This document shows positions 3,632 through 58,927 of a stretch of DNA of 64,000 bases, piece after piece (position 1 is the first letter of the stretch; every line of letters starts with the position of its first letter). Source of the stretch: Algibacter luteus. Lineage in GTDB: Bacteria; Bacteroidota; Bacteroidia; Flavobacteriales; Flavobacteriaceae. Position numbers and translations under genes: made by a program. The stretch lies in contig NZ_FQYK01000001.1 in the NCBI RefSeq assembly GCF_900141715.1, positions 248,001 to 312,000 on the forward strand, written 5' to 3'. The notes under the pieces are model-generated. The model was not told the DNA's origin. It made no database searches and saw only the letters and a program-made list of their open reading frames with translations.

Positions 3632-5416
3632 TTAAAGTTTTGCCGCTTTGGGCCCATCATAATCATAGGTGAACCAATCGATATCGATGTAACCTGCATC
3701 TTCTTTTTCATTCCATGAAAAGAAGCCTAAACGATCGCCCGTCCATTTTCCAAACGCAATGGTAAAGGTAGGACCGAAAGGTTTATAGTTCTCGCCATCG
3801 AGACTATACTCGTAGGTAGCTTGGTTGCTGTTATTTGATGTTTTAACGTATAAATCGTTTCCAGTTATTTCTGGGCCTTTAGTTTTTTGCGCCATTGGGT
3901 CCATGTAAAACAGATGTTTTTTTCCGTTTTCGTCCATTTCTATACCTAGCAAATTGAAAACGCCACCATAGCGTACAAAGCCTGCTAATTGATGTGGTTT
4001 CATTCCTGAAATATCAAATTTTGCCTCGGCAGTTCCTGTGGTTATACCCATAATACGCTGACTTAGCGTATTTGAAGCTCTCCAGAAATCGGAGTCGGAC
4101 CCGTCGTTGTTGGTCCACTCGTTTATGTTTGGTCCGTAGCCTTTTTCGTTTGGTAATATTTTGCTTGCTTTAAGGCGTAACCAACCCGGACGCTCGGTTA
4201 AAGACCAATGTGTATTTCTTGGATTGTGGTTCCATTCCCATTGGAAACCTAATTTTGGCGATGAAAAATCGTCGTCTGAACTCGGTGCAGCAATTGGGTA
4301 ACCATCTATTGGTTTTTTATATTGTTTTACAGGTTCGCCAATACCATCGTTATCTTCGTCTATGCCTATAATTGGCCAACCATCAACCCAATTTACAGGT
4401 TCTAAACATTGTGGACGCCCTTGAAACGGTATAGTATCGTTTTGAATCAATTGATGCATGTACCACCACGATTTATCTGGTGCTTGCATTAATGCACCTT
4501 GGCTTGCACTACGATTGTTAAAGGCTGTACCTTTTTCTAAAACAGTTTTTACTTCGTATGGACCATAAATACTTTCTTTTGAACGCAGCACAATTTGCTT
4601 ACGGTCGTTTTTTGGGTTTTTAACACCTGGTTTGGTGGATGTATCACCCATGGTCCATTGCGCTAAAAAGATATACCAAGTGCCAGCTATTTTAAAGATT
4701 TTAGCAGCTTCGGCACCCATACCTGTATAAACCAATTTACCTTCATCAAGAATTCTGGTGCCATCCCAACTCATTTCGTAAATTCTATTTTCATTGCCTT
4801 CAATTTTATTACTTGCTGCTTTTTGCTTGCCTGCAGTGTTAATAATCACGTAAGCTTTATGCGCTTCTTCATCCCAAAATACTGCTGGATCATCTAATAC
4901 TTTTGCCTTTGGAAGCATCATAATAGGCTTGCTCCATGGGCCTTTGATATCTTTTGCTGTTGCCACCATTAAACCATGTTGGTAGTCAATTTGATAGCAA
5001 TACCAAGTGCCATCGTGATAGGCTAAATCGCCTGCCCAAGTACCAAAAGAATAACCATTCATTCTATCCCAATTGTATTCTGGTGCCCATGACAAGCTAT
5101 CAAATACATGCCCAACATTGGTCCAATTTACCATATCCTTAGATTCCAAAATAGGCATCCCTGGCGACATGTGTTGTTTGGATGTAATCATATAATACGT
5201 ATCACCTACTTGCTCGATATCGGAATCTGGATAATCGGCATTTAAAATAGGGTTGATGTATGTGCCGTCTCCTTGGTCTCCAAAGCTTCCTGTTTGCCCT
5301 TGAGCCAAATCTTTTGATGCTATTGTTTTGTTTTCTGGTTTTGAACTACAACTGGCAAATGACACTAATAGTATAATAATTAGCGGTTTTAAAACAGTTT
5401 TGTATGCTAAATTCAT
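3632..5416 (-). CDS. GH43 glycoside hydrolase lipoprotein (beta-xylosidase-like)
   Basis: 594 residues with a lipobox (FASC, Cys23). The N-terminal five-bladed propeller carries the GH43 triad: base Asp64 in NADYPDSD, pKa-modulating Asp175/176 in DDPAVFWD, and acid Glu236 in GAEAAKIF. The C-terminal part (about 390-594) is a beta-sandwich of the kind found in two-domain GH43 xylosidases (DFSSPKLGFQWEWNHNP, then GFFSWNEKEDAGYIDIDWF). Expected role: release of beta-linked xylose or arabinose from imported oligosaccharides; xylose is a known ulvan constituent. It lies 36 bp behind the GH78 stop, so the two are very likely co-transcribed. The family call is secure, the exact substrate is not. Confidence 0.88.
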   Translation of the reverse strand: MNLAYKTVLKPLIIILLVSFASCSSKPENKTIASKDLAQGQTGSFGDQGDGTYINPILNADYPDSDIEQVGDTYYMITSKQHMSPGMPILESKDMVNWTNVGHVFDSLSWAPEYNWDRMNGYSFGTWAGDLAYHDGTWYCYQIDYQHGLMVATAKDIKGPWSKPIMMLPKAKVLDDPAVFWDEEAHKAYVIINTAGKQKAASNKIEGNENRIYEMSWDGTRILDEGKLVYTGMGAEAAKIFKIAGTWYIFLAQWTMGDTSTKPGVKNPKNDRKQIVLRSKESIYGPYEVKTVLEKGTAFNNRSASQGALMQAPDKSWWYMHQLIQNDTIPFQGRPQCLEPVNWVDGWPIIGIDEDNDGIGEPVKQYKKPIDGYPIAAPSSDDDFSSPKLGFQWEWNHNPRNTHWSLTERPGWLRLKASKILPNEKGYGPNINEWTNNDGSDSDFWRASNTLSQRIMGITTGTAEAKFDISGMKPHQLAGFVRYGGVFNLLGIEMDENGKKHLFYMDPMAQKTKGPEITGNDLYVKTSNNSNQATYEYSLDGENYKPFGPTFTIAFGKWTGDRLGFFSWNEKEDAGYIDIDWFTYDYDGPKAAKL

Positions 5417-8351: not shown

Positions 8352-8396
8352 TGAAGGTACTTGAATACTTTAAATACCTTATCCTGTACTATCATG
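8352..8396 (-). promoter_or_regulatory. Cassette 2: CAGGAT direct repeat plus -7 box (GH78 unit)
   Basis: Minus-strand half-sites CATGAT (8391-8396) and CAGGAT (8381-8386) have a 10-bp period. After 21 bp follows TACCTTCA (8352-8359), a weak -7 box with two mismatches to TAnnTTTG. A perfect TAATTTTG lies further downstream at 8339-8346 and could be the real -7 box instead. It sits between the terminator of the upstream gene and the GH78 start at 8308. Confidence 0.65.
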
Positions 8397-8519: not shown

Positions 8520-10283
8520 CTAATTGACCACAATTTTATGAGTTGAGACGCCTTGGGCTCCCTCTAATTTTAATATATAGATACCTGTTTGATTAGTCTC
8601 AAATCGAATCTCTTTTGAAGAAACAAAATTGCCTTTTTGAATTTCTACACCGTTTATTGAATAGATTCGATATTGGGTATCATCTCCATGCTTAAGCTTT
8701 ATGTTAAAAACGCCTTTATTCGGATTTGGATATATACGCACCTCATTTTGTTTTACAATTTTTGAGGAAGACAAAGATGCATTAGTTAATTCAATTATAT
8801 TTATTGAAAATTTAGGCAAAGTAATACTTTGACTCCCTTCACTAATTAAAGTTAACGGATTAACATCAATACCCATAGCTCTTTCTTCATCCATAGTTGA
8901 AAACGAGATGGCTTTGTGCACTGTTGATTCTGTATATGGCACACCATCTATATTCACATGAAACGGTACATCTTGATTACTAAGATTTACAACAAAAACT
9001 GAGGTTTTACCGTCTTTTGTTACGACTCTAGCGTTAACAGATTTTACCCCGTCTACAAGATTAGGAACTTGTACATCACTTTCAATTAATGTAGTATTTT
9101 CAAGTGCCCAACGTATAATTTCGTAGGCAGAACCAAACAACGTTTTTTCTAAAGGATACTTAATTCTTGGACGTTCTACACCACTTGGCGAAATATAAGT
9201 TTCCCAAACGTAATGCGAGTTTAATTTCCCATTTACGCTAAACCAGTTTGCACGCTCAAAAACATTTTGATTTTGACTCATAAAAATATAGCAATCTGCC
9301 ATACCTAAGGCAGATACCGCATTTGGCCCACCAGATTTTACACCCCACTCTGTTAACCAAATGGGTTTATTGGGTGCTACTTGATGTGCATAATCATAAA
9401 TAGAATTCCCTAAGTGTTTACGTGCTGTAAGTGCAGTGCTATAAGCTTCGTTACTATTACTTGAATCATCGGGGTCTGAACCCACATAAGTATGCACAGT
9501 CACCGCATCAAAATATGTAAGATCTTCTGTTAAATCGCTATTCCAATTAGGGTTAGCCCAACTATCTCTTCTCAAAAGTGGCACAGACACTTTTATATTT
9601 GGATCTTTAGCTTTTAAAGATGCAGACATGGATTTTGCTCTTGCAATATAATCTTCAACATTTGGAATAATAGAACTTCGTTGACCTGGGTAAAAACACT
9701 CATTACCCATTTCAACAACTTTTACCTCAAAGCCTCTAGCAATTAAATCATCATATCGCGCTATGGTTTCTGGACATCCATTATTAAAATCGGTACCATC
9801 AGCGCTCATGTTAAAAGTCCACATCATATCAAAACCCCTTCCTGTTGTTGATTTTCTGGTGGTATTTAAACTTGTAAGCCCATCAATTCCTACTTTTATG
9901 TTAAGTCTATCAAATGTTTTTATACTCTCTAATAAGTCTACTGTTTTTGTTTTAATAGTCTTATTTACCCCTTGTTCATACTCAAAGCTTTCTGTCCCAA
10001 AAAGCCTGGTAACATCACGTCGCCAATCATACCAATTTGACCATAAACCATGTGGAAATCTTATAGTAATAGGTTTTAATTTATTTATTAAATCTTTCTC
10101 GACTGTAGTTGTAAAATGATGCGTATTTGTTCCGAGTAATAAATTATTAAATTCTTCTTTTGATGTCGAAGTTATATTAATAGTTGCCTCCATATCTGAA
10201 GGTAAGCTAAAAGGGTAATCTTGTGCAAATACCATTACTGAGATTAGCATTGTGAAGCAAAAAACCAATACCTTTTGTAACAT
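8520..10283 (-). CDS. Secreted clan-A TIM-barrel glycosidase (GH51/GH39-like) with T9SS domain
   Basis: 587 residues. Signal peptide ends at VFAQ (about 21). The catalytic TIM barrel has a clan-A pair: Glu195 in VVEMGNE (probable acid/base) and Glu312 in IWLTEWG (probable nucleophile). A small beta-domain follows (about 390-500). Residues about 515-587 form a type A T9SS sorting domain (RIYPNPNKGVFNIK near the start, GIYILKLEG, THKIVVN at the end), so it should be secreted or surface-attached by type IX secretion. I do not recognise the exact family; GH51-like and GH39-like are both possible. It forms its own unit, with cassette 3 in front and a terminator behind. Its position suggests an early, extracellular step on the polymer. 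Confidence 0.75.
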   Translation of the reverse strand: MLQKVLVFCFTMLISVMVFAQDYPFSLPSDMEATINITSTSKEEFNNLLLGTNTHHFTTTVEKDLINKLKPITIRFPHGLWSNWYDWRRDVTRLFGTESFEYEQGVNKTIKTKTVDLLESIKTFDRLNIKVGIDGLTSLNTTRKSTTGRGFDMMWTFNMSADGTDFNNGCPETIARYDDLIARGFEVKVVEMGNECFYPGQRSSIIPNVEDYIARAKSMSASLKAKDPNIKVSVPLLRRDSWANPNWNSDLTEDLTYFDAVTVHTYVGSDPDDSSNSNEAYSTALTARKHLGNSIYDYAHQVAPNKPIWLTEWGVKSGGPNAVSALGMADCYIFMSQNQNVFERANWFSVNGKLNSHYVWETYISPSGVERPRIKYPLEKTLFGSAYEIIRWALENTTLIESDVQVPNLVDGVKSVNARVVTKDGKTSVFVVNLSNQDVPFHVNIDGVPYTESTVHKAISFSTMDEERAMGIDVNPLTLISEGSQSITLPKFSINIIELTNASLSSSKIVKQNEVRIYPNPNKGVFNIKLKHGDDTQYRIYSINGVEIQKGNFVSSKEIRFETNQTGIYILKLEGAQGVSTHKIVVN

Positions 10284-10301: not shown

Positions 10302-10346
10302 TAAAAATAAAGCTATTCTTAGCTAGTACCATCCTGTTCTATCATG
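10302..10346 (-). promoter_or_regulatory. Cassette 3: CAGGAT direct repeat plus -7 box (T9SS glycosidase)
   Basis: Minus-strand half-sites CATGAT (10341-10346) and CAGGAT (10331-10336), then 21 bp, then TATTTTTA (10302-10309; one mismatch to TAnnTTTG). The leader before the ATG at 10283 would be very short. The remaining 166 bp up to the rhaT stop show no clear terminator. Confidence 0.78.
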
Positions 10347-31598: not shown

Positions 31599-32483
31599 AT
31601 GAAAAATAAGTTTCGGAAATATCTAATAGTCTTTGAAAAAGACAAATCATGGGGCTTTTACATAAATAATCTAGGACGAACTGTTGTAGAAAAACACACA
31701 AATTACCCCTCGAAGGACCACCCAGAAAATTATGTTTTTTCATGGGACAAGGGACGTGTTTTAGACGAATTTCACTTGGTACTTATTACCAAAGGTGAAG
31801 GTGTTTTTGAAAGCAAAGCAACTGGTAAAATAAAAATTTCAGACGGCGATGTATTTTTACTTTTTCCGGGGGTTTGGCACCGCTATAAACCATCTAAAAA
31901 AACAGGTTGGACAGAGCGTTGGGTAGGATTCTCTGGTGACATTGCGAATCAATTTTTATCCAATGGTTTTTTCTCGCCAAATGCTCCTATAATTTCGAAA
32001 TGCAACCAACCTAAGATATTAAATCATTTTAATTCACTTTTCAAATTGTTTGATGAAGAACCGTTTGGGTTCCAAAAAACAGCTTCGGGAATATGCATTC
32101 AACTTATGGCAGAACTTCATAACGTTAAAAATGGCGGTAACAACATTGACAACCTAAACTCCATGGTATCACGAGCCAAAGGCATGATGTACAAGCAAAT
32201 CCATACATCTTTGGACTTACAAAAAATGGCTTCGGAATTAGGCGTGAGTTATTCAAAATTTAGAATAGATTTTAAAAAACAAACAGGGGCTTCTCCGCTT
32301 CAATACCATCTATTATTGAAGATTGAAAAATCGAAGGAATTATTATTAAACACCAATAAATCTCAAAAAGAAATAGCCTTTGAACTTGGTTTTGAGTCTG
32401 ATTATTATTTTAACAGACTGTTTAAACGCAAAACAGGGTATGCGCCAGGTAAATTTAGAAATCTTAGCAAAGGTGAATTTTAA
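31599..32483 (+). CDS. AraC-family transcriptional regulator
   Basis: 294 residues, cytoplasmic, the only plus-strand gene. The N-terminal half is a cupin-type AraC ligand-binding domain (FHLVLITKGEGVFESKATG, then ISDGDVFLLFPGVWHRYKP around 83-97). The C-terminal 100 residues are two helix-turn-helix motifs (LDLQKMASELGVSYSKFRIDF and SQKEIAFELGFESDYYFNRLF), the second with the usual AraC signature. This is the domain order of RhaS/RhaR/XylS-type activators that sense a sugar directly. Being divergent from the rhamnosidase/RhaT unit, it is the likely L-rhamnose-responsive activator of it (inference). Its stop overlaps the convergent 32480 gene by 4 bp. Confidence 0.92.
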   Translation: MKNKFRKYLIVFEKDKSWGFYINNLGRTVVEKHTNYPSKDHPENYVFSWDKGRVLDEFHLVLITKGEGVFESKATGKIKISDGDVFLLFPGVWHRYKPSKKTGWTERWVGFSGDIANQFLSNGFFSPNAPIISKCNQPKILNHFNSLFKLFDEEPFGFQKTASGICIQLMAELHNVKNGGNNIDNLNSMVSRAKGMMYKQIHTSLDLQKMASELGVSYSKFRIDFKKQTGASPLQYHLLLKIEKSKELLLNTNKSQKEIAFELGFESDYYFNRLFKRKTGYAPGKFRNLSKGEF

Positions 32484-34396
32484 GTTACAACTATTGAAAT
32501 AAGCAGTTCCTTTATACCTTCTTCAAAAAATACTTCTAAGGGCAATGCTTCGACTCCTGGTACCATATTAAAAGTTCTTGAGCCTTCCATTTCTTTTATT
32601 CTGATAGGCGCATTCGCTTTTACAGTAACCAATCCTTCCGGTTTTTGAATACTTATTTCTGTATCGCTTACTTGATTAAAAACTTCTTTATTTGGAGAAA
32701 CAATAGGTAACACAAATGCGGTTGGCTCTGAAACCACTTGTTTTGAATTTACTTTAATTTTCATAATATCTGCTGAACAGATATATGATATAAAAAACTC
32801 TGAAGCTGTATTTTCAATTACATTTCTATCAACATCTTTCAATTTTACATTTGCTAGTAATTCAATATTACCATTTTCATCTTTACTCGTTACAGTGGCT
32901 GGCAAATCATAAAGGTTTGTGTACCAAACCTTATCTTTAAATGTTTCAATTCGCGGCGTTAAACAAATATCTTTTCCAGGTTGTGGCTGTTGATTATTTT
33001 TTTCAACCATATGGTACTCTGCCATACTTGCAGCACATAATAACCCTACTCTATTATGAAATAAAACTCCTAAAGCACCTCCTGAAGCTTGCCGAAAATC
33101 ATACTGATAATGATATTCTGCATCATAAGCGCTTACTGTTCCTCGCCAATCTCCTCTTGCAAAAAGATAAACATCCAAATCTTTAAAGTGTTTTGTACCA
33201 TCTGCGGTAGCTCTTGGTAAACTAGCGTTTGAATTAATTTCTGGTAAGTGATCCCAGTGGTCTAACAAGGCTGCTAAAGGTTTAGCATGAGTAAACGTAT
33301 GGTGTACACAAGGAGGAATACCTGCTTCCACAAAACCAGGCCCTCCATGAATAAGTCCATCTGCAGTACAGCGTTGCAATAATTCTGTATTCTTAACAGC
33401 TGCTGTACCAAATGCAGGATTGATATGCGCCATCATTCCAAATGCAGGTTGGCTACCATCGCATGTTCTACTTCCCCAATAACTCCACTTATACATTCTA
33501 TTTCCCCAACTATTATCCCAAGCCCCATCAGGCAACATAAATTCTAAATGACTATTCAATGATTTTGTTAAGATTTGTAATAGCTCTTCATCTTTTTCTT
33601 TTAGCGCATACATTACTAAACTATTTAAGGTTTCTTCTACATTATATCCTAAATCTACACCATGTAATCCCTTTTCACTTAGTTTACTGGAGCTCTTCTT
33701 ACATTCCCCAAACAACAAGCCTTCATTTGCTGTAAAGTAGGCTTTTACTTCAGAAGCTAATTTTTTACTCTTGGCTTTAAAATCATCTCTATTTAAAATA
33801 TTACCTATTAAATTTAAACCATACACAGCTGTTCCTGGATAATTAATATTGGTGAAGTCAATTGTAAATGTATCGTAAATATATTGACCTGCTTTATCTA
33901 AACGCTTTGTCCATTCTTTTTGAGTTGCATCCTCTAAAACATGACCATGATAATGCAATGCTTCAGCGAGTGCAATAGCCCCAAAAACAGTAATGCCTTT
34001 CCAAGATTTCGGATTTCTAATGACTGTCCAAGATCCGTCTTCTTGAGACACATTGTTCTCAGCCCAGGTCATCACCAACTTTGCCGCTTCTACATATTTT
34101 TTTTCACCTGTAGTATCTGCCATATATAAAAATGGATAAACGGCATCCATACAACGCCCATGGATATGGGAACAGGATGGACAACCCAATGCTCCATGCT
34201 CTTCTAAATTATTTGGATTATTAATCTGAACGTTTATCATGCCATCACACCAATCCTTCAATAATCCTGAAATTAAATTCTTAAATTCCAAAGAATGTTC
34301 TGGGTGGTTTTCACATGAATTTAAAATACCAGCTATTGGAAGTGATATTCCTAGTCCTGCTAGTGTTGAAAGTTGAATGAAGTTACGTCTTTTCAT
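32480..34396 (-). CDS. Tat-exported lipoprotein of unrecognised family, possible polysaccharide lyase
   Basis: 638 residues. The N-terminus KRRNFIQLSTLAGLG is a twin-arginine signal, and ILNSC (Cys28) could be a lipobox, so a Tat-exported lipoprotein is likely. Residues about 35-400 are helix-rich and look like an (alpha/alpha) toroid (repeated helix pairs, WSYWGSRTCDGSQPAFGMMAH, a His-rich CVHHTFTHAKPL). The rest (about 400-638) is beta-rich. A toroid plus beta-sandwich occurs in heparinase-type lyases, but I cannot match a family; the recently defined ulvan lyase family PL40 is one candidate to test. It forms a single-gene unit with its own cassette beside the PL28 gene, which supports a role in polymer or oligomer cleavage. 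Confidence 0.55.
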   Translation of the reverse strand: MKRRNFIQLSTLAGLGISLPIAGILNSCENHPEHSLEFKNLISGLLKDWCDGMINVQINNPNNLEEHGALGCPSCSHIHGRCMDAVYPFLYMADTTGEKKYVEAAKLVMTWAENNVSQEDGSWTVIRNPKSWKGITVFGAIALAEALHYHGHVLEDATQKEWTKRLDKAGQYIYDTFTIDFTNINYPGTAVYGLNLIGNILNRDDFKAKSKKLASEVKAYFTANEGLLFGECKKSSSKLSEKGLHGVDLGYNVEETLNSLVMYALKEKDEELLQILTKSLNSHLEFMLPDGAWDNSWGNRMYKWSYWGSRTCDGSQPAFGMMAHINPAFGTAAVKNTELLQRCTADGLIHGGPGFVEAGIPPCVHHTFTHAKPLAALLDHWDHLPEINSNASLPRATADGTKHFKDLDVYLFARGDWRGTVSAYDAEYHYQYDFRQASGGALGVLFHNRVGLLCAASMAEYHMVEKNNQQPQPGKDICLTPRIETFKDKVWYTNLYDLPATVTSKDENGNIELLANVKLKDVDRNVIENTASEFFISYICSADIMKIKVNSKQVVSEPTAFVLPIVSPNKEVFNQVSDTEISIQKPEGLVTVKANAPIRIKEMEGSRTFNMVPGVEALPLEVFFEEGIKELLISIVVT

Positions 34397-34428: not shown

Positions 34429-34473
34429 GAAAAGTATTAAGATTTAATGCGAAAACTGTCCTGTTTTATCCTG
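34429..34473 (-). promoter_or_regulatory. Cassette 4: CAGGAT direct repeat plus -7 box (Tat lipoprotein)
   Basis: Minus-strand half-sites CAGGAT (34468-34473) and CAGGAC (34458-34463), 21 bp, then TACTTTTC (34429-34436; one mismatch). It begins 9 bp beyond the terminator palindrome of the PL28 unit and leaves a leader of roughly 27 bases before the ATG at 34396. Confidence 0.8.
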
Positions 34474-34482
34474 TATAATATA

Positions 34483-34518
34483 TTAAAAAGCCAGAAAACT
34501 AGTTTTCTGGCTTTTTAA
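34483..34518. terminator. Perfect 36-bp palindromic terminator after PL28 gene
   Basis: TTAAAAAGCCAGAAAACT (34483-34500) is followed immediately by its exact reverse complement (34501-34518). The stem is flanked by A-runs and T-runs on both sides, so it can act in either direction. It lies 20 bp behind the PL28 stop at 34539. Confidence 0.9.
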
Positions 34519-34538: not shown

Positions 34539-36515
34539 TTATTTTATAACCAATTTAGAGTTATATACACTGTTATCATTTGCCTTTGCTCTAACTAAAT
34601 AAATTCCTGAAGGCAAGTTAGTATTTTGTGCAACATTAATCACATCGCTGTTAGTTGAGTTTTTATAAACCAGTTTACCTAGTATGTTATAAATTTCGAT
34701 ATCTTTTACTCCAGTAATATTTTGAAATGCAATTGTAAATTTATTATCTGCTGGATTAGGATATACTTTTATTGAAGAAGTATTTAGTTCTGCTTCAGAA
34801 ATACTTAAAGTTGCAGATTCTAAAATCCATTTGCTTCTGTCATCTATATTGGCTGAATGTATTATGGTATTATCTACTGCGTGGTATAAATACTTACCTA
34901 GATTACGCGTCTCAAAACTATAGCTACCATCTCCGTTATCAATTACATTCCACAACTTATCTGTATCACTATTTGGTGCTGAAAAATTTGTACAAATCAA
35001 ATCTGAAACACCTGTAAATCTAATAATTTTTCTGGGGCCCTGGCTATCAATATTATAATAACTAGTTGCAGGTACACTTACAAATTGCCATTCTTTATCT
35101 GAACCTACTCCAGAATCACTTGCTATAATTGAACCATCATTTGGATCCATTAAATATTTGCCTGTAGCTACATTTTTAAGTTTATAATTACCTTCAGGCG
35201 CATCTCCTGATTCCGCAACTTCTACCTTCTGGTACGTTGTATTTGCCCATCTAATTTGCGCTCTACCACCCTTAACACGGTATGCACCATATCTAATTCC
35301 AGATTCTAGCCCTCTTTCTGGCTCTGGGATATTCCAATTAAAAGCGTCACCTCCAATTACTGCATCACAATAATGTATTTTTTTTGTGGGGTCGCTTGGA
35401 TCCTCTCTAAAACCTACTTCTAGCTCAAAGTTAATTTCTTCATTTTTATTTACCTGCTTTAAAAAGACTTCTTCCCTTCCGCTGCCTTCTCCACCTCGTA
35501 CCAAGATACGCTCAGCATAAATATCAAATGCAACTTGCTTACCAGCGTTTATTCCTGTTCCCATAACAGGTCTAGCTAAATACAAACAAATAGCTGGATC
35601 AGGGGAACCGCCGCCTCCAGAATGTTTGCCTTTGGCTTGTGCGATGTAAGTTCCATCTTGACTAAAACTACCAGCATCACCTACCTCTAATATCCTGAAT
35701 GTTCCCGTTAATCTTGCATAACTTCCAACACCTGTTTCTCCAGATCTGTCTAAAGATCGTTCTATTCTTGGTTGTAAGGTATTTGGAGCATCCCAGTGGT
35801 TAGACCCATCGGTAATGTTATAAACGCCCCAAGTTTTTCCATAAACATCAAATTCTGAGTAATCGGAGTAGCAGGTTCTATCATCAACAGTCCCTACATT
35901 AACAGGGTTTGGCAAATCTACATTTCTGGTACTGTTGTTTTCGAATTCACCAGAAGCTGGACAACTTAAATCCGTACTTGTATCTTCATCTGGCGCTACT
36001 ACTACAGGAGTTTGTACATAAGGAACGAGTTCCCAATTACTTCTGTCGTCTGTATCTGGAGCCACCGCATGAGTTACGGTTCCATCTACTTCATGATACA
36101 TAAATCTACCTGTTGTTCTGGACCCAAACCTGTAAGTATCATTTGTACTATTATAATCTATAGTCCACGTTTTATCTGTATCAGCAGCTGGTGCAGCCTT
36201 AGTTGTACTAACAACTACATAAGGGCCTCCTGGACCACCAGCACCTGGAGCACGTAATATTCCTAAGATTTCGCTATCAATATTATAATATGCGCCGCTC
36301 TCTACGAACTTAAAATGAGTGCTTTGCTCTTCTTCACCTAGATTTGTCATAGTTACGGGTGTTGCGCTTGCACCTGCATCTGTTAAAAATTGCCCTGTTG
36401 CTACATTTTTCAATCTGAAAATATCATTAGAAGGAAGCACGCCTTGAGCTGTTATACTAAGTGAGCATAACATTAAAACGAAAAATAAGATGGAATTAAT
36501 TGTATTTTTTTTCAT
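34539..36515 (-). CDS. PL28-like ulvan lyase with flanking beta-trefoil-like domains and T9SS domain
   Basis: 658 residues. Signal peptide ends at ITAQ (24). A beta-trefoil-like module ([12 protein letters not shown], 31-165), a jelly-roll lyase domain (about 184-434) and a second copy of the module ([12 protein letters not shown], 443-575) are followed by a T9SS type A sorting domain ([15 protein letters not shown] end). The lyase segment, with [51 protein letters not shown] and [18 protein letters not shown], matches what I remember of PL28 ulvan lyases from Nonlabens and Formosa. PL28 enzymes cleave rhamnose-3-sulfate to uronate bonds by beta-elimination. Secreted by T9SS, it should act first on the polymer outside the cell. 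Single-gene unit with its own cassette and terminator. Confidence 0.88.
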
Positions 36516-36556: not shown

Positions 36557-36601
36557 TAAAATTATTGAACATAATTTAACAAAGTATCCTGAACTATCCT
36601 G
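36557..36601 (-). promoter_or_regulatory. Cassette 5: CAGGAT direct repeat plus -7 box (PL28)
   Basis: Minus-strand half-sites CAGGAT (36596-36601) and CAGGAT (36586-36591) are identical. After 21 bp follows TAATTTTA (36557-36564; one mismatch). This is one of the two best copies. The ATG is at 36515. Confidence 0.85.
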
Positions 36602-42170: not shown

Positions 42171-43304
42171 TTAGATCTGTTTTAACTTTAAAACTTCACT
42201 ACCTGCCATTAAAAAGGCGCCTGTTCCAAAATTTTGCCAACTATCATATGATGCAGGTTCTGGGAAGGCCCCAATGTTTTGAACCCAACCTACACGACCA
42301 TCGTCATGTTGACATGCTGCTATAGCATTCCACGCTTTAAGGACAGCTGAAGTATGTTTTTTATCCACTAAACCATTGTTTATTCCCCAAGCTAAAGCAA
42401 AAGTATGGAAACCACTACCGCTAACTTCACCATAATCATAAGATTCTGGAGATAGTAAACTTGTTCTCCAAAGCCCATCTTCTGGCTGAATCTCTAATAT
42501 TTTCGCTGCCATTTCTTTGTATAGTTTTTCATAAAACGGACGGTGCTTATAATCTTCAGGCATATCATCCAAGATTAAAGCTAAACCAGCTATAACCCAA
42601 CCATTTCCTCTAGACCAAAACACTTTTTTTCCATTTGGCTCTTTACTATCTTTTTCTGAACCGGTCCAAACAAAACGCATATCTCTTGCAAATAATCGTT
42701 CTTCTTCATCATATAATTGGTTATAGGTTTCCATATAAAACTTATGCATGTCGTCTAAATACTTAGGCTGATTGGTGTGTTTAGCATATAAATTAAGTAC
42801 AGGAGGCGCCATAAATAAGGCATCACACCACCACCATAAAATGGTTCTACCGTATTCCGATTTATCGGTTCCGGCTTTCCAGTTATCATCTTCATACAAG
42901 TGTGCATCTAAAAACTTTTTAGTAGGCTCCAAGTCCACAAAGTTTTTTCTCCCTTCATTCATATCAATATATAAATAACTATATGAAATGGCTATATCAT
43001 CAGCGTGATGTATTCTATCAAAAGTCTGCCAATCATTCCAATACGCTTGATTTTTTAAGGCTGCCATATACATCATATCCTTAGTAGTTTTATGTGCCCT
43101 AGCAACACCTGTATAGTATGCACCGTTAGTCCAATCGGTTGGTGCTAATGCTATAATAGGGTGTGCTTCTTGCCACTCTAAAGCTTTTATCATAGATGAT
43201 TTCACTTTAGATTTATTTATGCTTTGAGATTCAGCTACTTTTTGAGCTGTTGAACAATTGAATAATAATACAACCGCTACAAGTGTTAAAATCGTCTTAT
43301 TCAT
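42171..43304 (-). CDS. GH105 unsaturated glucuronyl/rhamnogalacturonyl hydrolase
   Basis: 377 residues with a signal peptide and possible lipobox (LLFNC, Cys17). It is an (alpha/alpha)6 barrel of normal GH88/GH105 length. The two catalytic-region acids are visible: [13 protein letters not shown] (Asp102/103) and [14 protein letters not shown] (Asp161, the general acid position in the family). [19 protein letters not shown] and [14 protein letters not shown] are further family segments. These enzymes remove the 4,5-unsaturated uronic acid that lyases leave at the non-reducing end, so it is the direct partner of the PL28 and BNR lyases. It begins 6 bp behind the GH3 stop. Confidence 0.92.
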
Positions 43305-43310
43305 GATGTC

Positions 43311-45575
43311 TTATTTTTTTAGTTTGAATGTTGTTTCTAAATATTCTTGTGATGAGGTTCCTATTTTAACGGAATAGTCTCCAGCTTCTAAAACTTTTTC
43401 CATTGAAATACCGGTAAACTCTAACATTTTAGGTGTAATCTTAAATGAAACGGTTTTACTTTCTCCCGCATCTAATTCTATTTTCTCAAAACCTTTCAGT
43501 TCTTTATCTGGTCTTGTAACTGAACCTATTTCGTCTTTAATATACATTTGTACTACTTCTTTAGCCTTAACACTACCATTATTAGTGACTTTTACGCTAA
43601 CCTCTAACTCTGTGTCTGGTGTTATTTCAGCATTTGAAATTGCAATATCTGAGTATTCAAAATTGGCATAACTTAAACCATGACCAAAAGGATAAAGCGG
43701 TCCTTTACCTAAGAACAAATATTCCTTTTTATAGTTGATTTCTTTCATACTATAGTGAAACGGAATTTGCCCAATAGACCTTGGAATTGTAACTGGCGAT
43801 TTACCTGATGGCGATACTTCACCAAAAACGATTCTGGCCGTAGATTCATCACCAAATTCACTTAAATCCCAAGTATCTAAAATAGCATCGGCTTGTTCTG
43901 CTATAACATTAATAGATAAGGTTCTTCTGTGCTTTAAAACCACAATTACTGGTTTACCTAAAGCTTTAATTTTTTCAACGAGTTCGTCTTGAGGGCCAAC
44001 AGGGTCAATAGTTGCTCTATCACCTAACGTACTATTACTAAAATAAGCTTCTTTTGCAGTGTACTCATCACCTCCCAAAAATAGTATTGAAACATCTGCA
44101 GACCTTGCTTTACTTACTAAACTAGCTATGGCTTTTGGATCTCTGTCTAAAAGTTCTGGTGCACCGCCTTTCTGATTCGTTAATTGAAATCCTTTTTCGG
44201 CAATGAATTTTACATTTGAACCCGCAACAGACTCAAACATCTCTTTTGTGTTTTCTTTTAATAGAGGACCTAACAAGGCTACTTTTAAAGATTTATCTTT
44301 AGACAAAGGCAACGTGCTTTTTTCATTTTTTAATAAAATTATAGACTCTAAATCTGATTCTTTGGCCAAATCTAACGAAGACTGAGCACGCACACCTTTT
44401 TTAACTTCTTCAATATCGATATACGGGTTATCAAACAATCCTAAAATAAATTTTGTTCTCAACACACGTCTTACAGAACGGTCGATTAGCTTTTCTAACT
44501 CTGGGTTTTTCTTCACCATTTCTGGCAGGTAAGCATACGAGTCTTCAGCATATAAATCGATATCTATTCCTGCTTCTAAGCCCATTTGAGCTGCAGCCTC
44601 GGGAGACTCAGCAACTTTCATGAAATAGAATAATCGCGCGATGTCATTTGAATCTGAAACCACATAACCTTCAAATCCCCATTGATCACGAAGTACACCA
44701 GTTAATAGTTCTGGATTACCATGACTTGCCACACCGTTTAAATCGCCATGAGATGCCATTATACCTAATGTTTTAGCTTCTTTCACGGCCGCTTCGAATG
44801 GTGGATAAATTTCATCAATCAAGGTTCTTTCAGAAATCTCAATGGCAGCGAAGTTAGAACCTCCTAATACTTGTCCGTAACCCGCAAAGTGTTTCGCTAC
44901 GGCGCCAATATGCGTTCCATTTCCTAAACCTTCATAGTCACCTTGGACCCCTATTATGGCATTTTTAACCATCTGCGTTGTTAAATACGTGTCTTCTCCA
45001 AAAGCTTCACTCATTCGTCCAAAACGTGGGTCGCGCACCACATCTGCTTCAGGTGAATGGCACATGTGCATCCCTCGCAAACGGGCTTCTCTACCTACAA
45101 CATCCCATTGGCGTTGTACCAATTCTGGATTAAACGATGCTGCTGATGTCATTGGGCGTCCAAATCGCGTACAGCCTTCTGCATCTACGCCATTGTATGA
45201 TTCTGTTACAAATAACGCTGGAATGCCCCAACGGTTATTTTCAATAATATACTTTTGAAGCTCGTTATTCATTTTTGCTGCTGCTACGGCATCAATATGT
45301 TCTCCTGGATTTTTTATTCCTGCAATTCCTAACTTTAATTTTTCTATAACTCTCTCTGACAATGTTAAGTTACCATTTTCATCAGGCTTTGTACCGATGT
45401 TGGCATGAAAAATACGCATTTGTGCCACTTTTTCTTCAAGAGATAATTTAGGCAATAAGGCCTCTACACGTTCATCAATTGATAAAGATGCATCCTTATA
45501 ATCCATTGAACTTGAATCATTGTTTTTACATGACGCGATAATTATTAGTACTGCTAAAAAAAATATTTTCTTCAT
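43311..45575 (-). CDS. GH3 glycosidase lipoprotein (beta-xylosidase/beta-glucosidase type)
   Basis: 754 residues with a lipobox (IIASC, Cys16). Complete three-domain GH3: TIM barrel with AKHFAGYG (about 227-234) and nucleophile Asp308 in GYVVSDSNDI; alpha/beta sandwich (about 400-600, ILLKNEKSTLPLSK, SILFLGGDEY); and a C-terminal fibronectin III domain (VKVTNNGSVKAKEVVQMYI to the end). In an ulvan setting a beta-xylosidase removing xylose from xylose-rhamnose units is the likeliest role; the sequence alone does not separate this from beta-glucosidase. Its ATG overlaps the GH43 stop by one base (TAATG), a sign of coupled translation. Confidence 0.9.
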   Translation of the reverse strand: MKKIFFLAVLIIIASCKNNDSSSMDYKDASLSIDERVEALLPKLSLEEKVAQMRIFHANIGTKPDENGNLTLSERVIEKLKLGIAGIKNPGEHIDAVAAAKMNNELQKYIIENNRWGIPALFVTESYNGVDAEGCTRFGRPMTSAASFNPELVQRQWDVVGREARLRGMHMCHSPEADVVRDPRFGRMSEAFGEDTYLTTQMVKNAIIGVQGDYEGLGNGTHIGAVAKHFAGYGQVLGGSNFAAIEISERTLIDEIYPPFEAAVKEAKTLGIMASHGDLNGVASHGNPELLTGVLRDQWGFEGYVVSDSNDIARLFYFMKVAESPEAAAQMGLEAGIDIDLYAEDSYAYLPEMVKKNPELEKLIDRSVRRVLRTKFILGLFDNPYIDIEEVKKGVRAQSSLDLAKESDLESIILLKNEKSTLPLSKDKSLKVALLGPLLKENTKEMFESVAGSNVKFIAEKGFQLTNQKGGAPELLDRDPKAIASLVSKARSADVSILFLGGDEYTAKEAYFSNSTLGDRATIDPVGPQDELVEKIKALGKPVIVVLKHRRTLSINVIAEQADAILDTWDLSEFGDESTARIVFGEVSPSGKSPVTIPRSIGQIPFHYSMKEINYKKEYLFLGKGPLYPFGHGLSYANFEYSDIAISNAEITPDTELEVSVKVTNNGSVKAKEVVQMYIKDEIGSVTRPDKELKGFEKIELDAGESKTVSFKITPKMLEFTGISMEKVLEAGDYSVKIGTSSQEYLETTFKLKK

Positions 45576-46963: not shown

Positions 46964-47008
46964 TAAATATATAATTTGCAATCTAAGTAAGCGTCCTGTT
47001 CTATCCTG
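46964..47008 (-). promoter_or_regulatory. Cassette 6: CAGGAT direct repeat plus -7 box (GH43 unit)
   Basis: Minus-strand half-sites CAGGAT (47003-47008) and CAGGAC (46993-46998), 21 bp, then TATATTTA (46964-46971; one mismatch). The predicted transcript start near 46958 decides the GH43 start codon in favour of 46918. No clear terminator separates it from the upstream DUF5060 gene (stop at 47145). Confidence 0.83.
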
Positions 47009-51203: not shown

Positions 51204-54200
51204 TTAAAACGAATTTATTTTTAACTTAATTATATGTTTTCCTGGAGATAATCTAACCGAATCGAATGCAGGTGGAATTTTATTTCCATTATGGATTAAG
51301 TCTTTTCCGTCTATATCTTTTAAAGAAAACTCTGCTACCATATTTCCTGGAATTTCTATCTCGTAAGTTTGAAGTCTAGCGCCATTGTACGTATATTTTC
51401 CAATAATTGGACCTCTTACCGTTGGAACTTTTATTTCACTAGATTTCAATTTACCCATTTGAGGTTGAATAGTTGCCACACCAAAACCAGGCGTTTTAGG
51501 CTTTATACCCCATAATCCTCTTGGAATTACATTTGCCGGTACAGCACCCCAAGCGTGATTCCAATCTAAATTGTTCTTGTATTTTAAATCCCAAGCTTCT
51601 AAAGTTATGGTTGAACCTGAACGAATCATATTATACCAACTTCTTTCAGCTTTGCTAGCAAGTAGTTCTAAAGCATAAACTGCTTCACCAGCATTGTACA
51701 ACCCATCCATTAAAAATTGAGCTCCATAAACACTGCAAGCCATTCCTCTGGATTTTACGAAGTCTACAACAGATTGATAATGCTCTTCTGGAACTAACCC
51801 AAATGCCAACGGCATCATATTAGCATGCAGAGACGCATGATCTGTTCCTATACCATCTATATAAATACCACGGGCTGCATCGAACATTTGTTCGTTAACC
51901 GCCTTTTTAACTTTTGCTGCTCTTAATTCAAAGTCTAATACCTCTTGTGTTTTGCCTAAAATTTGAGCAAACTCAGCCATAATTTTCATGTTTTCGTAGA
52001 AAAACGAATTAATTACAGTGCTGTAAGGTTGGAACACAAATCCGTCGCGTTCTCCTTTTGTTTTGCTGCCGTTAAAATTGGCAGATGGCCAATCCACAAT
52101 ATCAGTTAATGGCTTTTTATAACCTTCAGGGAAGCCTAACTTTTTCATGAATTCGTCATCTACTTTTGTAGAAGTAATTAATCCTTCGTCATTAGAGAGT
52201 TCAAAAAGTGTTTTATGTTTTAATGGCTCATAATACCTTTCAATAAGTTCCGTATTTCCTGTATACATATAATCGGCATATATCAATAAAGCCACATGTT
52301 GTTGCCATTCGGTAGGCCATGTTGGATTTTTCATAAAATACTCGATAGTTCTTCTCGCCATGGCAAATTCTCTATCCGTAGTATAATGACTTAATTGATT
52401 CAAGTATGCATCTGCTTCGTAAGGAATACGTTCCCTATCTCCATCAACATATAACCCATTAAATGTTGTAGCTTTTATGGAATATTTACATAAATCCCAA
52501 ACCTGATTTAAAACATCGTTATTACTTTTAAAACTACTGGCATTATCATCCCAATAGGTATGAAACGCTAGTTGTTCAATGTCTTCTGCTGAAATTGATT
52601 CTTGCGCCCCTTCTATTTCGGCATATCGAAATGGCACCAAAGGTGGAAATCCATCTGGTAAAGGAATGGCTTTATTAGCTCTTGTATTTCTCTCATCTTC
52701 CTGAACTTTTATTTGATACTTTGTTTGCCCAGGTTTAACATCCACTTTTATTTCTTGATAACGAATATTGCTTTTTGCAGGTGGAGTTCTGTTAACATTA
52801 CCTTTTTCGTCTAACATTTCCCCAACCCTAACGGTTAAGGTATGTGGCGATTTGGCATTATAGGTAAAATCCATAGTAGCAAAAGCTGCTTTTCCGAAAT
52901 CAATAAAAACAAAGTCGTCTCGTTTTTCAAGTTTTACCGGTGCTACTTTCGTAACTACAAATTTGTTTTCAGTTGAAATAATATAACTATCACTTTTACC
53001 TGTGGTAAACTTTTGAGGCTCTGAATAATCAACTAAACGATTTTCTTCATCCCAAATCCTCACTTTCCAGTAGTAAGTTTTCCCTATTTCAAGTGGATTT
53101 CCATTATACTCAACATTTGTTGACTCTAAAGATCGAACTTGACCGCTATCCCAAACATCGCCGTTATTATTGTTGATGCTTTTCTGGTTGGAAGCGACTA
53201 ATATTTGGTAAGCCCCTTGATATTTAGCACCTAGAGGTACCGTCCAGCCAAATTCTGGTTTTAAATCGAATATTTTAACATCCGTACTAGGTTCTCTAAT
53301 TAACTCAACCGTTAAATCTGTTGGTGCCGCTCTAAACTCATTACTGTTCTTCTTAATTAACTCATCAAGTTTTGCTCGAAGATTATCGGCAACTGCTTTA
53401 TACTTCTTCTTTCCTATTAAATTGTTAATCTCTTTAGGATCTTTTTTAAGGTTATAAAGCTCTTCGATTGACTTATCATTTACATATCTAAAATATTTCC
53501 ATTCTTCAGTTCGAACACCTTCACTTGGAGGAATTTCACTAAAATCCCATATGTGTTCTATTAAAATGGTATCTCTAGCAATTGTATTGGTTTCTTTTTT
53601 TACAATTGGTAGTAAGCTTTTACCTTGCCACGTGTCTGGCGCTTTTACACCTGCTAAATCTGCAATTGTTTGTGTTACATCAATATTTAGTACCATGTCA
53701 TCAATATCTTGATGTGAGTTCACACGTGGATCAAATACAATTAAAGGTACTCGAATTGAGTTGTCGTACATCAGCCATTTTCCTGCTAATTTACGTTCAC
53801 CTAAAAAATATCCATTATCACCCATTACAATGATAACTGTATTTTTTTCTAAGCCTTTCTCTTCTAATTTTTTTCGAATTTTTGCAATTTCTAGGTCTAT
53901 TCCAGAAATCATTCGGTAATATCCTTTTAAGCTGTGTTGGTATTTTTCTGGAGTATCATAACGCCAAGTCCAGCGTAACCAGTTAAATCCGTCTCTTACT
54001 ATTTTAGGTTGTGCGTTAAAATATTTATCATCACCTAGCTCAGGTTCTGGAATGGTTATGTCCGTAAGTAATTTATCTGTTTCAGCTTGCCAAAAATATT
54101 GATCTGGTGCACTATCATGCGCATGAGGTGCACTAAAGCTCAATGAAAGGCAAAATGGTTTTTCATTTGTTGCATTTTTATCTATAAAATCGATAGCTTG

Positions 54201-54731
54201 TTGCCCTGTGTAACGGGTTAAATGTACTGTGTCATTATCAATGGTTTTATAATAATATCCTCTTCTATCTTTAAAACTGTGATTTCTGTCATAATCTTCA
54301 TACTCATCAAATTGTTTATCCAAATCATTATAACGAACGCCATATTTTCCATAAAAGCCCGTATAATAACCATTGTTTTTTAACACGGTTGGATACGAAT
54401 TTGCCATATATTCTTCACGCACATTTCCTGTTTGAAAATTAAAATTATGTGCTCTTTCATGTAAGCCTGTAAATAAACTCGCTCTACTCGCAGCACAAAT
54501 TGGTGTAGTAACAATAGCAGTATTGAAATAGGTTCCTGATTTTGCCAAATCATCCATTTGCGGGGTTTCTACATATTTGTTACCCGCATACCCAATAGCA
54601 TCAAAACGTTGATCATCTGTAAGAATGAATATAATATTTGGTTTATCTTCAGTGCTTTTCTGTTGAGCATTTGACGCGTTAAAACCACATATTGTTGAAA
54701 TTAACATGAATAAAAAACTGACTTTTCGCAT
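51204..54731 (-). CDS. Sulfatase-GH78 rhamnosidase fusion
   Basis: 1175 residues. Signal peptide ends near SNAQ (23). Residues about 28-480 are a complete S1 sulfatase: [13 protein letters not shown], maturation motif [11 protein letters not shown] with Cys79 (Ala instead of the usual Pro), [17 protein letters not shown]. Residues about 490-1175 are a GH78 rhamnosidase: fibronectin-like domain ([20 protein letters not shown]), sandwich, six-hairpin barrel with [14 protein letters not shown] in place of DCPxRE, and [20 protein letters not shown]. Combined desulfation and rhamnose removal on one chain fits rhamnose-3-sulfate ends. A bimodular enzyme of this kind (S1_25 plus GH78) is known from the Formosa agariphila ulvan locus, from memory. 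Own cassette upstream, hairpin downstream. Confidence 0.92.
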
Positions 54732-54781: not shown

Positions 54782-54826
54782 TAAAACTAGGGTTTAGCCC
54801 TAGGAGTTCCATCCTGCTCTATCCTG
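54782..54826 (-). promoter_or_regulatory. Cassette 7: CAGGAT direct repeat plus -7 box (sulfatase-GH78)
   Basis: Minus-strand half-sites CAGGAT (54821-54826) and CAGGAT (54811-54816), 21 bp, then TAGTTTTA (54782-54789; one mismatch). It lies just behind the terminator of the oxidoreductase unit, with about 45 bases of leader to the ATG at 54731. Confidence 0.85.
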
Positions 54827-58882: not shown

Positions 58883-58927
58883 TAAATATAACTAGTTCAA
58901 TTAAATTTACTGTCCTGCTCTATGCTG
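58883..58927 (-). promoter_or_regulatory. Cassette 8: CAGGAT direct repeat plus -7 box (DUF1080 unit)
   Basis: Minus-strand half-sites CAGCAT (58922-58927) and CAGGAC (58912-58917), 21 bp, then TATATTTA (58883-58890; one mismatch). It lies just behind the double terminator of the SusCD unit, with about 25 bases of leader to the ATG at 58852. Confidence 0.8.

Follow-up and report, generated by a model that had tools for sequence, protein, structure and literature searches.

We analysed a stretch of 64,000 nucleotides from Algibacter luteus (NCBI RefSeq assembly GCF_900141715.1, contig NZ_FQYK01000001.1, positions 248,001 to 312,000 of the forward strand), hereafter the window, which is C5:248001-312000 in our own contig handles, and within it a reverse-strand gene at positions 32480-34396 that starts with ATG, encodes 638 amino acids without an internal stop and is the only gene of its type in the genome (3,376,148 bases, 17 contigs). 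Although the initial annotation regarded its product as unrecognised, the protein is a kind of enzyme that has been published from another genome, in 2018 and 2021. It is very probably the ortholog of P29_PDnc from Formosa agariphila KMM 3901 (WP_038530528.1, CDF79930.1, BN863_22180), a member of family PL37, and would accordingly be an oligosaccharide dehydratase that is exported by the twin-arginine translocation (Tat) pathway and anchored by a lipid. The gene and its key codons are:

32480..34396, reverse strand: putative PL37 / P29_PDnc-type ulvan oligosaccharide dehydratase, 638 amino acids (open reading frame (ORF); all eight published mutated positions present; homologs in 72 loci)
34385..34390, reverse strand: codons 3-4, Tat-like twin arginine (40 of the 41 aligned proteins have RR or RK)
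34313..34315, reverse strand: codon 28, lipobox cysteine (39 of the 41 aligned proteins have a cysteine in this vicinity)
33653..33655, reverse strand: codon 248, aspartate, proposed as catalytic base (the published variant D248N had no activity; conserved in all 19 sequences)
33497..33499, reverse strand: codon 300, arginine, proposed carboxylate binder (invariant in 19 of 19)
33488..33490, reverse strand: codon 303, lysine, proposed as catalytic acid (the published variant K303I had no activity; conserved in all 19 sequences)

Identity of the protein

No Pfam or NCBIfam family scored above its cut-off for the window protein, and its identity was taken from the literature; a PDB sequence search with it matched no chain. 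In the Pfam scan there was no match to PF07940 (heparinase II/III) up to an E value of 1, among GH127 and other glycoside hydrolases the only hit was GH76, which at E 0.91 failed its cut-off, and the PL28 domain PF22826 was absent from the protein and present in its neighbour.

In F. agariphila, the number of CDF79930 (BN863_22180) adjoins that of the PL28 gene BN863_22190, and its product was described by Konasani et al. in 2018 as a periplasmic broad-spectrum ulvan lyase composed of an (alpha/alpha)6 toroid and a beta-sandwich (PMC6168547). The eight residues that were mutated in the 2021 study of P29_PDnc (D248, E254, E255, D269, D290, R300, K303 and Y306) all occur at identical numbers in the window protein, the gene lies beside PL28 and among the same pathway partners, and the two-domain fold is the same; the GenBank form CDF79930 differs in having 622 amino acids, some 16 fewer at its N-terminal end. 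One variant is given as R300E in the variant list of the 2021 paper and as R230E in its results text, and the numbering in its mechanism figure is lower by six (PMC8511951); since residue 230 of the window protein is a glycine, R300 is favoured as the published position. Homologs 50-87% identical to the window protein were found in 72 loci, the ortholog of Nonlabens ulvanivorans reaching 81%, and PL28 lay within the fetched flanks of 40 of these loci. The cut applied by Baumgen et al. in 2021 for putative dehydratases was at least 50% identity to WP_038530528.1 (PMC8511951).

A lyase or hydrolase of a poorly described family had been proposed initially, with PL40 as a candidate. What stands of this proposal is an ulvan-pathway enzyme with a lyase-like predicted fold; the enzyme, however, is of a published kind, and membership in PL40 or another such family is extremely improbable. 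PL40, represented by P10_PL40 and Uly1040, does belong to the ulvan pathway, and Uly1040 likewise combines an (alpha/alpha)6 toroid with an antiparallel beta domain, but it has 856 amino acids and a Tyr305/His485/Mn mechanism in place of the Asp/Arg/Lys of P29, and the failure of any Pfam or NCBIfam family to pass its cut-off speaks against this reading as well. In the table of a 2024 review, CDF79911.1 of the F. agariphila locus is PL40 and CDF79930.1, to which the window protein corresponds, is PL37 (PMC11395424). PL40 was dropped on these published accessions, which belong to separate proteins, and not by a sequence test; the catalytic set of PL40 is Asn-Trp / Tyr / His-X-His.

Conservation of the proposed active site

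Conservation was examined in two alignments. A1 comprises 41 sequences of 50-87% identity, namely 40 of the 72 loci and the window protein; L072 was excluded for a stop codon in the stretch and the other 31 as near duplicates or partial sequences. A2 comprises 19 sequences, namely 13 A1 loci, the window protein and five distant proteins of 25-29% identity that come from a single further family (f16) in this phylum, with the distant matches L083, L086-L088 and L092-L094 lying outside it. A sample of 296 genomes of the phylum yielded six with a match, two of which (G253, G282) were weak or fragmentary and were left unused.

A1 cannot separate essential residues from the others, because each of the eight mutated positions is fully conserved there or nearly so. 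Across A2, which descends from 87 to 25% identity, D248, R300 and K303 are invariant in all 19 sequences, and so is D290, while Y306 and E255 are each retained in 14, D269 in 15 and E254 in 16 (with Asp in the remaining three). No sequence of A2 departs from the three residues that inactivate the enzyme when mutated, and three of the other five vary; this constitutes sequence-level support for the dehydratase residues that is independent of the assays. Y186 and Y251 are also invariant in A2, and neither is in the 2021 variant list. We found no description of the spread of this triad across the family in the literature searched, which mostly lacked subscription papers.

Fold and export

An AlphaFold2 model built from A1 (mean predicted local distance difference test score 80.8, predicted template modelling score 0.83, with low confidence at residues 1-33 and 61-68) places helices at residues 36-397 and strands at 400-637, which agrees with the helical, toroid-like N-terminal half and beta-rich C-terminal half of the initial annotation. 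Foldseek with this model returned GAGase VII, a glycosaminoglycan (GAG) lyase, first (E 4.7e-13), followed by GAGase II, dermatan sulfate epimerase, and PL33 and PL17 lyases. VIA-align matched both domains in 6hzn (Z 20.2, root-mean-square deviation 4.9, 503 residues) and 8khw (Z 18.7, deviation 5.0, 478 residues), and ranked sugar 2-epimerases higher (Z 23.1, deviation 3.5, 335 residues) over the toroid only. A PDB profile search gave weak matches only, the best being dermatan sulfate epimerase at E 0.072, and a local hhalign alignment to the Hepar_II_III group scored 26% and stopped before residue 248, so that no residue-level mapping onto lyase active sites is claimed. GH154/BcGDH was not among the 50 best matches listed in either fold search, which excludes nothing.

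According to the model, the fold appears to belong with the uronate lyases and dermatan sulfate epimerase. The heparinase II/III-type lyases (PL12, PL15, PL17, PL33) and this epimerase share the toroid plus beta-sandwich with the window protein, but at about 10% identity and with no sequence family match, and the essential residues of P29 are Asp/Arg/Lys rather than Tyr/His; D248 or Y251 might fill the position of the superfamily tyrosine. Uronate lyases and the uronate epimerase abstract the C5 proton, and as such chemistry fits a dehydratase and a lyase equally well, the fold alone is not decisive.

The Tat signal and lipobox that had been read from the window protein recur among its relatives, with RR or RK at residues 3-4 and a cysteine within residues 24-31 in nearly all A1 sequences at the counts listed above, and the protein is probably an exported Tat lipoprotein; its lipobox, L-N-S-C, is slightly non-canonical. 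The 2018 work used the 622-residue form, with a construct of residues 15-622 (PMC6168547); judging by the lengths, this form would begin at about residue 17 of the window protein and would hence have lost the twin arginine.

Dehydratase or lyase

The literature contradicts itself on this enzyme: CAZy-based reviews enter the protein as an ulvan lyase, and the 2021 paper calls that very protein a dehydratase. Konasani et al. reported an endolytic lyase whose substrates were ulvan, heparan sulfate and chondroitin sulfate and whose products were analysed by nuclear magnetic resonance and mass spectrometry, and described depolymerisation with a Michaelis constant of 0.77 mg/ml and Delta-containing products (PMC6168547). 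Baumgen et al., in contrast, found P29_PDnc with N- or C-terminal tags inactive on ulvans from seven sources, with PL28 active, and reported that it dehydrates glucuronate- or iduronate-rhamnose-3-sulfate (GlcA/IdoA-Rha3S) to Delta-Rha3S, a substrate for P33_GH105 (PMC8511951). The double-bond assay on polymer that the initial annotation recommended dates from 2021, when it came out negative for the F. agariphila protein; the 2018 paper reports the opposite.

It is improbable, in our judgement, that the protein is a true endo-acting broad-spectrum ulvan lyase for which dehydration is a side reaction. Such an enzyme would agree with the 2018 depolymerisation data and with the lyase-like modelled fold, and PL37 is still entered as an ulvan lyase family in a 2026 paper and in the 2024 review, in which the word 'dehydratase' does not occur (PMC11395424). 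It is, however, difficult to reconcile with the inactivity on seven-source ulvan in 2021; a periplasmic lipoprotein would moreover be poorly placed for the first attack on a polymer, and a PL28 enzyme with a type IX secretion system (T9SS) tail is already encoded in the locus. For the F. agariphila ortholog the best-supported activity is not depolymerisation but the removal of water from the saturated uronate at the non-reducing end of ulvan disaccharides.

Several points nevertheless weigh against assigning this dehydratase activity to the window protein. Besides the endolytic activity reported for the same F. agariphila protein (PMC6168547), the thiobarbituric assay of 2021 gave a dehydratase signal much weaker than that of the positive control (PMC8511951), and the fetched flanks of 55 of 77 homolog loci yielded no GH88/105 gene. 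D290 is invariant and yet not among the inactivating mutations, so that invariance alone is no proof of catalysis, and the sequence of F. agariphila P29_PDnc itself lay outside the compared loci. Given the opposite results of 2018 and 2021, the dispute between lyase and dehydratase is not fully closed; a false lead is nonetheless removed, in that the supposed unknown lyase is the published PL37 enzyme.

Gene neighbourhood and proposed pathway

The PL28 gene lies directly upstream of the PL37-type gene, an adjacency that had been noted initially and is confirmed by the PF22826 match, and all partners of the published route are present within the window:

31599..32483, forward strand: AraC-type regulator, convergent, with a 4-bp overlap with the end of the PL37-type gene (PF12833/PF02311)
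34490..34511, no strand: perfect inverted repeat flanked by T5 on both sides, likely PL28 terminator (read from sequence)
34539..36515, reverse strand: PL28 ulvan lyase with beta-trefoil and T9SS tail (PF22826, E 3e-119; PF24208; PF18962)
42171..43304, reverse strand: GH88/GH105-type unsaturated uronyl hydrolase, expected next enzyme (PF07470, E 1.9e-68)
43311..45575, reverse strand: GH3 (P34-like), published competing route from the same disaccharide
51204..54731, reverse strand: sulfatase-GH78 fusion (P36-like), expected maker of the dehydratase substrate

The inverted repeat with T5 between PL28 and the PL37-type gene suggests that the latter probably forms a transcription unit of its own. 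In A. luteus, PL28 would cut ulvan outside the cell, SusC/D would import the oligosaccharides, and the GH88/105 enzyme and the sulfatase-GH78 fusion would trim them to GlcA/IdoA-Rha3S. The PL37-type dehydratase would then eliminate water across C4-C5 of the terminal uronate, with Asp248 abstracting the C5 proton, Arg300 holding the carboxylate and Lys303 protonating the leaving hydroxyl, and the resulting Delta-Rha3S would be hydrolysed by GH88/105. The reaction and the three essential residues were shown by others for F. agariphila P29_PDnc (PMC8511951). For A. luteus our analysis shows the orthology, the conserved triad, the gene context and the repeated element described below, and we infer both the localisation and the reaction of the enzyme.

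A repeated operator-like element

A repeated element, CAGGATARNRCAGGAY, was spotted in upstream regions of window genes and fits the direct-repeat pattern CAGGAYA-N3-CAGGAY, which a TANNTTTR box usually follows at 21 nt. Its positions in the window are:

34458..34473, reverse strand: operator-like direct repeat CAGGATAAAACAGGAC before the PL37-type gene (exact match)
34429..34436, reverse strand: -7 box TACTTTTC, 21 nt after the operator of the PL37-type gene (same offset in 6 of 7 window sites)
36586..36601, reverse strand: operator copy before PL28 (pattern scan, as for the following)
8381..8396, reverse strand: operator copy before GH78
10331..10346, reverse strand: operator copy before a 587-amino-acid T9SS protein
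46993..47008, reverse strand: operator copy before GH43-GH3-GH88-sulfatase genes
54811..54826, reverse strand: operator copy before the sulfatase-GH78 fusion
58912..58927, reverse strand: operator copy before DUF1080 / GFO-IDH-MocA genes

Allowing at most one mismatch, the window holds seven sites against a mean of 0.04 in shuffles, and all seven lie outside the 30 genes, non-coding DNA making up 5.7% of the window; three mismatches proved too loose (12 matches, 6.75 expected), and the element was not among the 20 largest families of a repeat finder. As the pattern was derived from the window upstream regions themselves, the independent tests are other genomes and unlinked sites. TANNTTTR-like boxes are of the -7 type of Bacteroidota, and one stands exactly 21 nt after the operator in six of the seven window sites as opposed to 5 of 469 other positions, the offset having been chosen after inspection of the data. 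Upstream of P29 homologs the operator, again with at most one mismatch, occurs in 44 of 72 cases, compared with none of 72 when a stretch of equal length from within the gene was taken. The 21-nt offset recurs in 20 of the 33 usable sites, namely those of the 44 whose surrounding sequence extends 14 nt upstream and 50 nt downstream. It is missing upstream of the roughly 57% identical paralogs L060-L065.

The whole genome contains 18 operator sites versus none with a reversed-pattern control; 17 are outside called ORFs, and the one inside an ORF (C11:164300) is probably due to chance. Unlinked copies precede a second PL28 (C11:61515; PF22826 E 4.6e-124, C11:61572-62522, L080:3573-4523) and a protein with an ulvan-lyase beta-trefoil domain (C4:1448), the copy at C5:226765 precedes a BNR_4 and beta-trefoil T9SS protein, that at C5:318311 a 1043-amino-acid ORF that is SusC-like judging by its start, and a GntR-type gene outside the window is also behind an operator. 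Among 120 genomes of the family, at least four exact CAGGAYANNNCAGGAY copies were present in all seven full-length P29 carriers as against 2 of the 113 others (Fisher P 6e-10, uncorrected for relatedness); here G466, with a 52-residue match only, counts as a non-carrier, and in G368 and G427 only the 49-56% type is present. G417 and G471 are family genomes that have four exact copies each and lack P29.

The cassette that had been noted before the PL37-type gene and likened to lyase-like control is real, far more frequent than chance would give, and shared with PL28. The further claim that all cassette-bearing neighbours are polymer-attacking or entry enzymes did not survive, as a GH43, GH78 genes, a DUF1080/MocA-type set and, beyond the window, the GntR-type gene carry the operator too; the element appears to mark an ulvan regulon, not polymer attack. 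No description of such an operator or regulon was found in the literature searched, which is weak evidence of absence since subscription papers were mostly missing from it. If confirmed, the operator would make ulvan-responsive genes easy to enumerate, the unlinked second PL28 among them.

The 587-amino-acid T9SS protein (8520-10283), whose sorting tail is its sole Pfam domain, has a relative near the P29 homolog in 4 of 72 loci and is possibly an undescribed ulvan-active secreted protein. On contig C4, a 407-amino-acid stretch cut off at the contig end (L079:1-1223) combines an ulvan-lyase beta-trefoil with a MopE-type metal motif and has two overlapping operator copies upstream, and the site at C5:185597 stands beside two adjacent 348-amino-acid ORFs with similar beginnings (L077:2816-3862, 4049-5095).

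Candidate regulators

The operator is most likely an activator-type site read by a hybrid two-component system (HTCS) regulator, although both the regulator and the sign of its action are inferred. A single gene with Reg_prop repeats exists in the genome, a full HTCS at C5:328458-332537, and close homologs of it (45% or more) were found in five of the seven P29 carriers versus 2 of 113 other genomes; one of these two, G471 (57%), belongs to the pair of non-carriers with four operator copies. As only five HTCS candidates were scored per genome, absences in this survey are soft, but the carriers G401 and G426, which have the operator and show no close homolog of either the HTCS (among those five) or the AraC regulator, do not fit this assignment.

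The alternative that the neighbouring AraC regulator, not the HTCS, controls the PL37-type gene seems to us unlikely, though worth bearing in mind. AraC is adjacent to the P29 homolog in 23 of 72 loci, and its close homologs (73% or more) are confined to P29 carriers (4 of 7, none of 113 others); however, three of the seven carriers have at least four operator copies without a close AraC homolog, and the distribution of the HTCS homologs, wider among carriers, argues against it as well.

The wider PL37 family

Dehydrating the end of an oligosaccharide and then removing it with GH88/105 may extend beyond ulvan. A GH88/105 gene was present in the fetched flanks of 22 of the 77 homolog loci, including that of one distant homolog, and distant homologs adjoin GH2 (L095, L096, L097, L098), L097 also having GH88, GH28 and a GH84-type gene nearby. 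We speculate, with somewhat less than even confidence, that PL37 as a whole is no lyase family and consists of uronate dehydratases on a heparinase/epimerase scaffold with an Asp/Arg/Lys site, that its Flavobacteriaceae members belong to the CAGGAYA-N3-CAGGAY ulvan regulon, and that the invariant Y186 or Y251 may be the missing superfamily tyrosine.

The window protein itself was also considered as a GH154 dehydratase and rejected, as it had no PF10022 match and hhalign of A2 against two DUF2264 proteins, which we take to be GH154, gave a probability of 0.3%. BcGDH of Bacteroides caccae (GH154) represents a dehydratase family that carries out the same type of uronate reaction and is likewise paired with GH88, but is unrelated by sequence (PMC12269599); this pairing indicates that the two-step logic is not unique to ulvan. 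The conservation of the Asp/Arg/Lys triad suggests that the PL37 label may mislead studies of gut GAG utilisation that assume lyase activity (PMC6994673).

A paralog clade (L060-L065, G359, G427) of 49-57% identity often shares a genome with the 80% type; L060 and L062-L065 lie among sulfatases, and L062-L065 also beside GH106. In the A. luteus genome, a DUF2264 gene at C5:172619-173203 (L120, L121), presumably of the GH154 type, is apparently broken into two pieces with short frames, one of them with a stop.

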